Shown here piece after piece: positions 30,985 to 51,663 of a stretch of 64,000 bases of DNA. Origin of the DNA: Brachyhypopomus gauderio (lineage: Eukaryota; Chordata; Actinopteri; Gymnotiformes; Hypopomidae); contig NC_135211.1 of the NCBI RefSeq assembly GCF_052324685.1, forward strand, positions 7,376,193 to 7,440,192, in the 5' to 3' direction. The notes below the pieces were generated by a model. The model made no database searches, was not told where the DNA came from, and saw only the letters and a program-made list of their open reading frames with translations. How positions within the stretch are numbered: position 1 is the stretch's first letter; every line of letters starts with the position of its first letter. Both the position numbers and the translations under genes were made by a program.

Positions 30985-31309
30985 ATGGAGCGGCGTGTTG
31001 GAATAGGAGTTGTGTTTTTTTTATTGCAGGTAACTATTTTCTGTGTGTTGTCGTCGTGTTATTCAGTCATATTTGTTTAAACTAAAGAGCAAACACTTAA
31101 CTTTGCCGTACTAACCCGCCTCAAATAAAACAAATACGATTTTTAAAATTTCTCGTTATAACTGATTATTCTTTGTGATATCTTACTTTAAAAGGTACTT
31201 TCGTCTGCATTGGCGGAGTCGCCGCCATGTTCACCTGGATTTGATTCAGAGCTCTTCGTTTTCAGAGTACACAGAGAGCACCTTCATAGGGGCAAAAGGC
31301 TCGGGAAAG
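30985..31309 (+). CDS. cdh1 paralog B, exons 1-2 (signal peptide and start of prodomain)
   Basis: Exon 1 (30985-31029, 45 nt) encodes [19 protein letters not shown] signal sequence, ending at a GT donor. Exon 2 (31195-31309, 115 nt) continues in frame through [19 protein letters not shown] to RLGK with one overhanging base, exactly as in cdh1-A. The start is one codon shorter than in A. The intron between them (31030-31194) is collinear with A intron 1. The phase fits exon 3 at 47553, giving the codon for Val at the joint. I therefore treat this as the 5' end of copy B. The ~16.2-kb intron 2 in between is the weak link of the model. Confidence 0.8.
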
Positions 31310-32109
31310 GTACTAAAGACCTTTATGTTTAAAACCTACATGTACGGCTGGAAAGGAAGAGGAGCTCTTTGATAATACTGGTTTAAATGTGTTGTAACTC
31401 TGTGATACCACCCTGATTGCTGAGTTCATCATTAGTTAGTATTATATTTAATTAAGTCATCATTGATGTGGTGTAATTTGTCCTTTTTATATACTGTAAA
31501 AAAAATCCTTAAAAACGGTCAAATGACTGGCTGCCAAACAAAAACCTATTTTAAAGTAAAAAACCCTGATTTAAATTAAGTGGAAAACAACACATTTACA
31601 GAAAAAATCATTAAACATTCTGCAGAGAAATACCGTTATTTTACAGATTTTTCCTGGAGGATTATGATTTAGCACTTTAAATAAAGTCACAGCATCAATA
31701 GTTTTGCAGAGAAATACCTTTTATTTTACAACTTTTGCCTGAATTATCACAATTAAACACTTTCAGTAAAGTGACAGCACTAAAAGTTCTGCAGAGAAAT
31801 ACCGTAATTTTACAGATTTTTCCTGTCCATATTCATCATGACTTCCAGGACAAACTCAAATGTGCAATGCAAATTGCAAAGTTATTTTATGCAAATGAAA
31901 AAATTATATTATACCAATGTTGAGCACCTCAATGTCCTCCATCATCACTTTTAATCATTTAAATGGGGACTGTACTCAGTGTCTTTCTCCATCACCAATA
32001 TCAGTCTTCAAATCAGTCTACATTTGAAGACTGCTAGGGACTCTGCAGTCTGGACAGCCAATGGAAGCTCATTCCACCATCTCAGAGCCAGGACAAGTCT
32101 TGAAGCTTG
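31310..32109 (+). repeat. cdh1-B intron 2, proximal part with ~88-bp tandem units
   Basis: The first ~190 bp match intron 2 of cdh1-A. From ~31490 both B and C carry extra sequence with three diverged units built around GCAGAGAAATACC...TTTTACA (starting near 31622, 31714 and 31793). No gene. Confidence 0.6.
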
Positions 32110-47552: not shown

Positions 47553-50500
47553 TGGGTTTCAGTGACTGTAGTGGAAGGTCGCGCATGGTGTTTGACACCA
47601 CTGATAAGTGGTTTGAGGTGGCCACTGATGGAACAGTGAAGTTGAAGAGGCAGGTCACTCTTCATGAGGGTCACAAGATGTTCTCTGTCCACGCCTGGGA
47701 CTCCACAGGCAAGAGACACACTGCGTACGTGAGGGTGGAACATGAGGGTGGAAGAGGCCAACAGGAATACACTGAGGCAGTGGGACCTGCACAGGTACTG
47801 CACCAACACAGCCTGACCTCTGCTGGACAAAACAGGAATTGTGACACATGCTGGATTTTTTTTCTTTATCTTTTCCATTAGCAATTTACCCATGACTTCC
47901 TATTTATTTTTTTGAAGACTTGGTGTTGGTTTGATATTGATATATGAACAGCCAATAATCTTTTACACTTGATTACAGATAATTACATCCCAACTCAAGT
48001 GATGCTTGCCTGGAGTTGTATGAAGTGCATGCTGTTAGAAGACAGAATTTGAGTCCCACTGATATACGATGGTGGTGTCTTGTGTACACAGCATCAGATG
48101 CTGTACACCAGCCTTATTTACACACGGTTCTGTTTATGTATTTGTGTGTTGTGCTAAAGGTGGCAGTTTTGTTTGTGTGAAAATGAAACAACTAAATGTA
48201 ATGTATGGGGAGGATTATATTATTATATTATCTCTTTCTTTATTCTGCAGCCTGAATCCCCCTCAACTGTCTTGTTTCTGGATTTTCTAAAATCTTCTGT
48301 GGGGTTGAGGAGGTTACAGGGATGCATGCTGATCCCTCCATTGTCCTTTCAAGAAAATGACATTGGTCCTTTCCCTAAAAAGATGCCGTTCAAGGTGTGT
48401 GCTGTTTGAGTAACATGGATGAAACTTTTCTTTTATACATGATGTTTTTTTGTACTTAATTGCTGCATTTTTGTCCAGATCAAGTCAATATTTGCTAAGG
48501 AATCTCCGCTGTGGTACAGCATCACTGATGAAGGAGCAGACCAACCTCCTGAGAACCTTTTCACTGTGGATAGGAACACTGGCTGGATGTATGTTACAAA
48601 GACTCTAGACAGGGAGAAAAAAGACAAGTATCAGGTAGGAGACATTTTGTTTCCTACTAATTCTAATGATACATGGCATATTGTTTTTGCTTAAACAAGA
48701 TTCAGTGTGTTCTGCTGAAGGAGGCTTTGTTTCTGTTCTGATTAATGCACAGTTTGAATGAACCTGTTCTGACATCAGTTTGCATGTTCTTTTCTGCTTT
48801 TTCTAGCTTCAAGTTCAAGCAGTTGCTGAAGATGGAAGTGTAAAGGAGCTAATAGATATTGAAATTGTTGTTATTGACCAGAATGATAACAAGCCTGTCT
48901 TCACCCAAGATACATTCCTAGGCAGTGTACCTGAAGTTTCAAATATAGGTAGCTATTTGTGCCTATTTAGTGTAATGAAGTAGTTGGTGATGGCTGGTAT
49001 TTGTTACATTTATTATTCTCTGCTCATAATGTCATGATCATTGTTTCACTGAAGGGTTTGAGATCATGACGGTCACAGCCACTGATGCAGACGACCCCAA
49101 CACTGACAATGCTGATGTCAGATACACCATCCTCAGTCAGATTCCAGCACTGCCATATCCAAACATGTTCACCATCAACTCCGTCAGTGGGGCGATTCTA
49201 GTGGAGCCTGAAGGACTGGACAGAGAGGTGAGTGCAGAAATCAGGTTTATGAATGTTTAGATTTAATGTGGAATGAGATCATAAATAATTTTCATCATGA
49301 TCTTTCAGAAATATCCTGAATACACACTGGAGCTCCAAGCTGCAGATTTACAGGGTAAAGGCCTCACAGGCAAAGGAAAAGCTATTATTACTGTAACCGA
49401 CAGCAATGACCATGCACCTCAGTTTGAGAAGACCTCGGTAAGAAAAGTGACCGCTTCCAAATACTGAAAGTTTTGTATAAATTATCCAGGTAGCTGCATC
49501 TGTTGATGACTTACGATTGATTCATTGAATACACTACCAGTCAAGTTTGGACACACCTACTCTGTTAATTTGTATTATTTGTGACATTTCAAAAAAAGGG
49601 GAAGATGCCAAACTCAAGAAAGAAAACATGTTATGCGCCAAATTAGATTCTTTGAAGTAACCATCCTACATTTTGATGAGAGCTTTGCACGTTCTTTGTG
49701 TTCTGTTAACCAGCTTCATGAAGCAGCACCTATGATGCTATTTCATCTGTCCTGAAGACCTTCTCACATGTAGAGGAAAGAGCTAGAGCTTATTTTGTGT
49801 GTGTGCGCGCGTGTTGAATGATTCCATATATAAGAACACCTTTTCCAAATTATATTTCTTGTAAACAAATTTTACAAAAGATTAAAATGTCCTTTACTAT
49901 TAAGAACATGCATTTAGTCAGGTGTGTCCAAACTTTTGATTGTTAAAATACCTGTAAATGGGGTTTAAACCCATCCTATAAGAAAATAATGTAATTTAAA
50001 CATTTCATATTGTTTTCATATCGGTAATGAAGCTTCATTGTCTTTCAGTATAATGTGTCCGTCCCAGAGAATAAAATGGGAGCTGTGGTGGTGAAAATGC
50101 CAGTGACTGATGGGGATGAACCTCAGTCACCTGCCTGGGCAGCACAGTTCAGGATTATTAATGGAAACAGTGGTGGGTTTTTCAACATTAGCACAGGACC
50201 AAACAAACAGGAGGGCATCATTACTACTGTCAAGGTACTGCACCCCTGAAACTGGTTTGCTAACATGATCAGGTTTGTTTGTTTGAATGATGCTTGAATT
50301 TATTGCTTTTATTTTTGTATTGTGTTTAGCCGTTGGACTTTGAGAGAAACAGCAGGTACACTCTGTCGGTGATCGCTGAGAATGAGGTTCAGTTTGCCAA
50401 ACCTCTGACCACCTCCACTGCCACAGTCACTGTGAATGTTATTGATGTGAATGAGGCTCCAGTGTTTGACCCAGAGAAGAAGACAATCTCCATATCTGAA

Positions 50501-51663
50501 AATCAGGAGGTTGGCAGTGATCTAACAGTGTACACCGCTAATGATCCTGACATGGCAAAGTCTCAGAAAGTCACGTAAGGGTTTCCTCAGAGCCTTTAAT
50601 GTTGTAGCTGCTGTTTATCTGTAGTCCATAACTGTGTCTGTATCTGTGTGTGGTTGTAGTGCTAGAGATTAGACTTTCTCTCTGCTGCATGAGCATTGCT
50701 GGAGTAATCGGAGGTCATGCTGTATGTTTCAGGTATCGTGTAGGTAGTGATCCTGCCGGCTGGCTGAATGTGGACAAAGAGACTGGAGTGATCAGGGTCA
50801 AGAGTGACATGGACAGAGAGTCTCATGTTGTGAAAGATGGCAGATACGAAGCTCTGATCTTGGCCATGGATAATGGTAATTTCATTTCCCCGTGTTTTCT
50901 TCAGAAGAAACATTTATCAGAGTAGTGCCTTCTAAAAGCTTTTTGTTTTTGCAGATCCAGTTCCAACAACTGGTACAGGGACCCTTGTGATTGAGCTGCA
51001 GGATGTAAATGACAATCCTCCTGTCATTGAGGAGAGATCCTTCAAATTGTGCAACAAGCAGTCGGCTCCAGTGCTGCTGTCTGTGTCTGACAAGGACGGG
51101 CCTGGCTTCACTTCTCCATATAATGCAGATCTTGTGGGAGATGGCCACAAAAACTGGACTGTCAGGATGAACAGCAGTAGTAAGCTGTGTGTGTGTGTGT
51201 GTCCACGTTATTTATGTTGGTCTTTTGAGCTTCTAGCAAATGTGCTTTGATTTGTGTGCAGGAACTGGAATCATACTTGAACTCAAGACCCCACTGGAAC
51301 ATGGAGACTACAATATTGTTATGAGGGTATTTGACAGTGGTGGTCTCTTCCAGGACAACAGTGTGCAGGCCTCTGTATGTGACTGCACAGGAAATGAAGT
51401 CAATTGTCCACACATAGGCGAGGCAGGCTTAGAACTGTCCGCCATCCTCGGAATTCTTGGGGCCATTTTAGCTCTTATGTGTAAGACATTTTTTGCTGAT
51501 CCCCTTCAAGTACAATTCTAAGGTGATGTCTGGTGTCTGAGTTGTTAGGTGGCCATTGGTGTTGATGGTAGTGTGTGTGTTGTCGTCCACTCTAGTGCTG
51601 GTCCTTGTGCTGCTGCTCTTCTTGAGGAGGAAGAGTTTTAAGAAGCTGGCTGACGTGTACTGA
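47553..51663 (+). CDS. cdh1 paralog B, exons 3-14: uncleaved, tailless cadherin
   Basis: Exons 47553-47794, 48251-48394, 48479-48634, 48807-48948, 49055-49227, 49309-49437, 50049-50234, 50330-50574, 50733-50875, 50955-51179, 51262-51480, 51596-51663, all with AG/GT borders and the same phases as cdh1-A. With exons 1-2 (30985-31309) the total is 2232 nt, 743 residues, no stop or frameshift. Prodomain, EC1-EC5 and the membrane span are present, and the calcium motifs (LDRE, DQNDN, DADD, DVNEAP, DVNDNPP) are kept. Against copy A: RRKR/DW becomes RLQG/CM, HAV becomes QAV, and the last exon runs from the membrane anchor (FLRRK) straight into SFKKLADVY and stop, removing the p120- and beta-catenin-binding regions. 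The stop lies in the last exon, so nonsense-mediated decay is not expected. Expression is unknown. A slowly decaying pseudogene remains possible. Confidence 0.85.
49535..49950. repeat. Intron 8 Tc1-like MITE in cdh1-B
   Basis: Starts near ACCAGTCAAGTTTGGACACACCTAC (~49538) and ends near AGGTGTGTCCAAACTTTTGATTG (~49920-49942), inverted ends. Counterpart of the repeat in cdh1-A intron 8. Confidence 0.65.

Follow-up and report, generated by a model that had tools for sequence, protein, structure and literature searches.

E-cadherin is commonly regarded as a gene under constraint. The HAV stretch lies on the acceptor side of the Trp2 swap, and a protein without the cadherin tail has no catenin binding and no actin link. 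T-cadherin (CDH13) has five extracellular cadherin (EC) repeats, and engineered tailless E-cadherin, which comprises the ectodomain and a membrane anchor, retains the furin site and Trp2. In published descriptions, T-cadherin is presented as the 713-residue product of 14 exons that lacks a cytoplasmic domain and key adhesive residues and is not primarily an intercellular adhesion molecule (PMC11994602); LI-cadherin (CDH17) and the 7D cadherins as having a single span and a short tail without armadillo-binding motifs (PMC13398008); surface pro-N-cadherin as carrying an unprocessed prodomain that sterically restricts dimer formation (PMC8750447); and engineered tailless E-cadherin as associating with EGFR (PMC12669962). 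Here we describe gene B, an open, tailless E-cadherin-type copy in a 64,000-nucleotide (nt) stretch of the Brachyhypopomus gauderio genome (the window, C1:7376193-7440192), together with the tandem array to which it belongs. Among the titles and abstract openings listed by searches of the open-licence literature, none described such an array or a furin-less, tailless E-cadherin paralog. The reading we favour, with a little better than even confidence, is that B is a young, open paralog of a B/C pair, drifting under weak constraint and with no established function. Coordinates are in window numbering, which is continued for sites outside the window.

Gene B was rebuilt from the sequence as 14 exons containing 743 codons and a TGA. 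The borders are GT-AG in 13 of 13 introns, the 2232 nt hold zero stops and zero frameshifts, and the start phases of exons 1-14 are those of gene A, the complete E-cadherin-type gene on the other strand of the window (Table 1). In Pfam searches, the prodomain family Cadherin_pro (PF08758) matched residues 26-115 of B with 81.2 bits against a cut-off of 23, and was also found in A; four separately significant Cadherin stretches were obtained in each protein. The fifth EC repeat of B was recognized by alignment only, to EP-cadherin over residues 10-737. Calcium motifs are present as DQNDN, DSNDH, DVNEA, DVNDN, LDRE, LDRE, LDFE and MDRE, and the closest solved relatives are EP-cadherin 1q55 (residues 10-737) and Cadherin-1 7stz.

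The A protein has RRKR followed by DWVIP, an HAV and the full catenin tail. Aligned with B, the RRKR-DWV of A faces RLQG-CML, such that Trp2 is replaced by Met; CML also occurs in C. The convertase site, RRKR in A and G, is missing at the prodomain/EC1 border of B and C, and the one R-X-K-R string in B (RGKR, residue 47, also in G) lies inside the prodomain, off the processing site. HAV reads QAV in B, near a 3-nt deletion, and is retained in C, A and G, as if the Trp2 acceptor drifts after Trp2 loss. The tail family, PF01049, was found in A and not in B. The hydrophobic membrane span of B, which is followed by 14 letters, aligns with that of A, and about 12 residues would be cytoplasmic. An earlier note on this DNA had claimed an intact 14-exon frame with all borders and phases, retained calcium motifs and repeats, and loss of the furin site, Trp2, HAV and catenin tail; the rebuilt model, the A-B alignment and Pfam confirm these points, with four repeats recognized by Pfam and EC5 by alignment. 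Judged on its sequence, B is a descendant of the classical type I cadherins and not a functional classical cadherin, because the processing site, Trp2, HAV and the tail were each looked for and found to be absent.

The surroundings of B were searched with protein A as the query against 334 kb, consisting of the window and 27 flanking stretches of 10 kb. The genome searched comprised 796.5 Mb in 840 contigs, and the genome-wide protein searches scored the best candidates only. In the 334 kb, nine E-cadherin-type copies form a tandem array of ~224 kb, from about -44.4 to 179.1 kb (about C1:7331780-7555250): A and G are full-length genes, B and C lack the tail but are open, and Y, Z, D, E and F are truncated. 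The C model is likewise intact, with 744 residues and GT-AG at all borders. Thus, the earlier proposal of a novel tailless paralog stands inasmuch as B is intact and spliceable, and was incomplete in that C is a second such copy in a nine-copy array. A and B share 90% identity over 4180 aligned bases, introns included, a likeness far beyond chance.

Genome-wide, exon 5 matched at the nine copies (63-98%; next place, 49%) and exons 12-13 at A, B, C, G and Y (next places, ≤41%). The tail exons 15-16 of A had 96-99% matches at A and G only, among the 31 genome places found, with other cadherins at ≤82%. The copies are highly identical, as might be seen if a haplotype copy or a collapsed repeat had been assembled as an array. 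All nine lie on one 55-Mb contig with differing intron lengths and exon-4 sequences, however, which renders an assembly artefact very improbable.

B and C share their principal lesions. The tail was lost in both by an in-frame deletion that brought the final part of the former exon 16 directly behind the middle of the former exon 14. Past the joint, exon 16 is still read in its own frame (FKKLAD-M/V-Y), a new TGA follows TAC, and the joint and TGA are identical in the two copies. In exon 4, a block of 18 nt with nine nonsynonymous changes common to B and C eliminates the furin site and Trp2 together in the alignment of eight copies; the other six copies with this exon (A, G, Y, Z, D and F) have RRKR, then D or E, then W. 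The exact 18-mer occurs in B and C only in the whole genome, with one more place at 1 mismatch. A copied donor was sought within the 334 kb at ≤3 mismatches, and nothing besides B and C was found. The cluster of nine substitutions looks like one multi-nucleotide event. Because B and C agree in the tail joint, the TGA and the exon-4 block, the furin/Trp2 loss and the tail deletion would have arisen in one copy that was later duplicated. The block also introduces a cysteine at the start of EC1 in both copies (48323-48325, in LQGCML), which could form an intermolecular disulfide.

The B-C separation is recent: the two copies diverge by 1.0% in intron 2 (97 mismatches in 9457 aligned bases, counted over stretches of at least 95% identity, lower-identity stretches being omitted). 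In the other introns, excluding intron 12 for its length, they differ at 67 of 2113 bases, and in coding sequence at 78 of 2229. Trees of successive segments disagree: the partner of B is G in exons 1-3 (0.883), C in exons 4-6 (1.000) and Z in exons 7-8 (0.946); in exon 9 B and C are identical, and over exons 10-13 these two group apart from A, G and Y (0.943). Such discordance is as expected from exchange among copies, and it suggests gene conversion. The trees indicate that stretches have passed between B/C and other copies after the shared losses.

The earlier note had argued that decay at random should have disrupted the frame at some point in 2.2 kb. To this argument the truncated copies, which are incapable of encoding a complete cadherin, provide a control. 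Over exons 1-13, Y, Z, D, E and F together cover 5151 nt and carry 124 private substitutions (77 nonsynonymous and 47 synonymous), part of which may predate the truncations, with no stop; their matches contain indels of 3 or 6 only. The frame argument therefore fails: five truncated copies are equally open in exons 1-13, the duplication is young, and the trees shift by segment. Retention of the frame as proof of function was rejected on this control, and in this array an intact frame is as compatible with youth and exchange as with function. In a neutral simulation, the odds of no stop were about 0.09 at 76 substitutions, and none of 20000 runs was free of disabling events. The simulation was set aside because its coding divergence was 3.5% as against 1.0% in neutral intron 2, and because the segment trees disagree.

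Evidence of selection is mixed, with few replacements outside EC1 and many inside. The changes private to B are in neutral proportions (23 nonsynonymous to 6 synonymous, a ratio of about 1.1). In exons 4-6, B-private replacements exceed the intron rate (17/346 versus 27/1433, p=0.003), and synonymous changes are raised as well (5/95 versus 27/1433, p=0.04); between B and C, dS in these exons is 0.11 and the ratio of nonsynonymous to synonymous rates (dN/dS) 0.54. Exon 4 is the extreme case. A and B differ there by 23 replacements and 3 synonymous changes (NG86 ratio 2.5), and at 26 of 144 sites as against 31 of 519 in introns 3-4 (p=3e-5), an excess that persists when the 18-nt block is removed (17/126, p=0.007). 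Such figures would fit positive selection on the EC1 of the B/C pair, be it towards a decoy or towards some new specificity within a diversifying array. Nine of the 23 replacements, however, belong to one clustered block, and an older or converted segment explains the accompanying rise in synonymous change. Positive selection on exon 4 was set aside on these two grounds, and we regard it as improbable for EC1. EC1 seems unconstrained, and EC2-EC5 are perhaps partly constrained. Maximum-likelihood estimates from Biopython (1.12 for B-C and for A-C) departed from NG86 and YN00 and are taken to be badly converged.

Several observations weigh against drift under weak constraint. The exon-16 remnant of copy Y (about -40655 to -40583) has a 1-base gap and an in-frame stop; it is the clearest decay seen in the array, limits the control at its 3' end and shows that a sequence dead for a sufficient time does decay here. 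Both B and C are still open after their shared losses, and hand arithmetic, based on ~23 expected substitutions and on the indel rate of intron 2, gives the two frames a joint chance of neutral survival of about 0.02. B-C dN/dS is 0.56 (NG86) or 0.59 (YN00), with binomial p of 0.01-0.02, and is no higher than that of the full-length pair A-G (0.67 and 0.69). The C-private changes number 20 nonsynonymous to 12 synonymous (p=0.04). Outside exons 4-6, B-private replacements fall below the intron rate (9/1328 versus 27/1433, p=0.006), as they do on the internal B/C branch outside EC1 (9/1328 versus 27/1433); the B synonymous rate outside exons 4-6 is low too, at 2/394. Finally, the sequence upstream of B, 627 aligned bases of which are 88% identical to copy G, and the poly(A) signal are retained. 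The check for dN/dS near 1 proposed in the earlier note accordingly had a split outcome: the B-C pairwise values lie below 1 and the B-private ratio is near it.

The same dN/dS values, the scarcity of replacements outside EC1 and the survival of both frames are what would be seen if B and C were selected regulators, that is, uncoupled surface procadherins that dilute A and G or bind them sideways, or that occupy ectodomain partners such as EGFR, and thereby lower adhesion or contact signalling. Consistent with such a role, tailless E-cadherin is reported to associate with EGFR on live membranes in a manner requiring EC4 (PMC12669962), and the prodomain is described as sterically limiting N-cadherin dimers through inhibition of the Trp swap (PMC8750447). 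Considering that the B-private changes are neutral and that the truncated copies have also kept their frame in exons 1-13, we hold selected regulation to be unlikely. The bolder proposal, that B and C constitute a new cadherin class of gene-encoded permanent procadherins that lack processing site, strand swap and catenin tail, have gained a cysteine where EC1 begins and have a fast-changing EC1, selected in an expanding array to tune or decoy A and G, seems to us more unlikely still.

Another alternative is that B is already silent, being either not transcribed or unable to join exon 2 to exon 3 across its 16-kb intron. At 16.2 kb (B) and 24.3 kb (C), intron 2 is far longer than the 1.9 kb of A and the 1.6 kb of G, and in B it contains retroelement reading frames; the neutral private changes also accord with silence. 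In contrast, all splice borders, the G-like upstream sequence and the poly(A) signal have been kept, and silence is a rather unlikely explanation. The preferred reading remains that of a young paralog under weak constraint, the frame of which would be open largely because of youth and sequence exchange between copies.

If transcribed, B would yield a product that retains the prodomain and lacks the Trp2 strand swap as well as p120- or β-catenin binding, that is, an uncoupled membrane procadherin. The label 'non-adhesive' in the earlier note would follow from known cadherin biology, in which retention of the prodomain and lack of Trp2 prevent adhesion by strand swap. Such a product could act only sideways, its targets being A and G or else partners of the ectodomain, EGFR among them, or do nothing; we place the absence of a selectable effect somewhat ahead of sideways action.

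Other copies show features of their own. The last two exons of G encode protein identical to that of A, though the A and G ectodomains differ. Copies Y, Z and F (exon 4 starts at about -44411, -15852 and 146954) have a 5' part of exon 4 that is common to the three and differs from the others, and their upstream flanks can be aligned over roughly 500-600 bases; descent from another rearranged copy is therefore probable. Copy E is an older, more diverged fragment, with 62 private changes in 552 covered nt and no stop in the aligned part. Copy C has a large insertion in its 3' flank.

Positions 34899-39545, in intron 2 of B, contain PNMA-like, reverse transcriptase-RNaseH and integrase open reading frames (ORFs) of a Ty3/gypsy-like element, in unjoined pieces. 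Between A and B, the arms of an inverted repeat (22333-23177 and 26845-27689; 845 nt, 98% complementary) were found, the right one overlapping an 18-nt tandem repeat (27505-27805), with a DDE-transposase ORF nearby (27876-28475, minus strand). On the 3' side of A, a long ORF at 1973-3478 (minus) has a DUF1759 match below cut-off and looks retroelement-derived, and a 1194-residue ORF at -2085 to 1496 (minus) crosses the left window edge. Nine flanking ORFs were compared with Pfam: two matched MIF4G above cut-off, three had matches below cut-off only (DUF1759, Integrase_H2C2 and zf-RVT), and four were without any match. The two MIF4G ORFs (L021:2489-4618, about -57.5 to -55.4 kb) lie beside the array, match adjoining parts of the domain and are probably exons of one gene. 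No hyaluronan-synthase motif was present within the 334 kb.

Table 1. Positions of the cadherin copies and of the parts of gene B, in window numbering.
Feature	Position	Strand	Description
Gene A	4864-11876	-	16 exons; 2655 nt with stop; 884 residues; complete E-cadherin-type gene
Gene B	30985-51663	+	14 exons; 2232 nt; 743 residues
B exon 1	30985-31029	+	ATG and signal peptide (15 letters)
B exon 2	31195-31309	+	prodomain start; AG and GT borders
B intron 2	31310-47552	+	16.2 kb; retroelement pieces
B exon 3	47553-47794	+	cadherin prodomain, PF08758
B exon 4	48251-48394	+	prodomain end and EC1 start; most diverged exon
Exon-4 block	48314-48331	+	18 nt; nine nonsynonymous changes common to B and C; RKRDWV to LQGCML
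B exon 5	48479-48634	+	EC1
B exon 6	48807-48948	+	EC1 end; QAV for HAV; private in-frame 3-nt deletion
B exon 7	49055-49227	+	
B exon 8	49309-49437	+	
B exon 9	50049-50234	+	
B exon 10	50330-50574	+	
B exon 11	50733-50875	+	
B exon 12	50955-51179	+	
B exon 13	51262-51480	+	ectodomain end and membrane span start
B exon 14	51596-51663	+	rest of membrane span; deletion joint (about 51635); 12 letters; TGA
AATAAA	52082-52087	+	421 nt after first base of stop codon; offset 421 in A, G and B
Copy C	58183-87160	+	open, tailless; 744 residues; runs past window
Copy C exon 1	58183-58227	+	
Copy C exon 2	58390-58504	+	exons 3-14 past window, at 82782-87160
Copy D	128.3-136.3 kb		matching ends inside exon 10
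Copy E	137.0-138.2 kb (137054-138185)		matching ends inside exon 8
Copy F	147.0-148.1 kb		matching ends inside exon 8
Copy G	172743-179060		past window; full length; 881 residues
Copy Y	about -44.4 to -40.6 kb		exons 1-3 without match; match fades from exon 14 on
Copy Z	-15.8 to -13.8 kb		matching ends inside exon 10

Here E-cadherin forms a tandem array in which two copies are full length, two are open but tailless, and five are fragments. Expression of B or C would make that copy a natural test of how an E-cadherin ectodomain behaves when processing, strand swap and catenins are missing, a question otherwise approached with engineered constructs. If neither is expressed, young exchanging duplicates stay open without function, a warning against taking an intact frame as proof. 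B and C may be young regulators or young genes on their way out.

Compared with E-cadherin (CDH1) and Xenopus EP-cadherin, B shares the signal peptide, prodomain, five EC repeats with calcium motifs and membrane span, in an exon plan and phases as in A, and differs in being without the furin site, Trp2, HAV and the catenin-binding tail. T-cadherin is anchored by glycosylphosphatidylinositol and has no membrane span, whereas B has a span and about 12 cytoplasmic residues and is located in an E-cadherin array; inspection of the B sequence gave no sign of such an anchor in place of the span, as its hydrophobic span aligns with that of A. The 7D cadherins (CDH16 and CDH17) have seven EC repeats, as against five in B with the E-cadherin exon plan. 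Thus, B is predicted to resemble T-cadherin and CDH17 in not binding catenins and, by its type of anchor and number of repeats, to be a member of neither group. Engineered tailless E-cadherin is a laboratory construct. In pro-N-cadherin, the product of a normal gene retains the prodomain as a state of its processing, while in B the gene itself is without the site.

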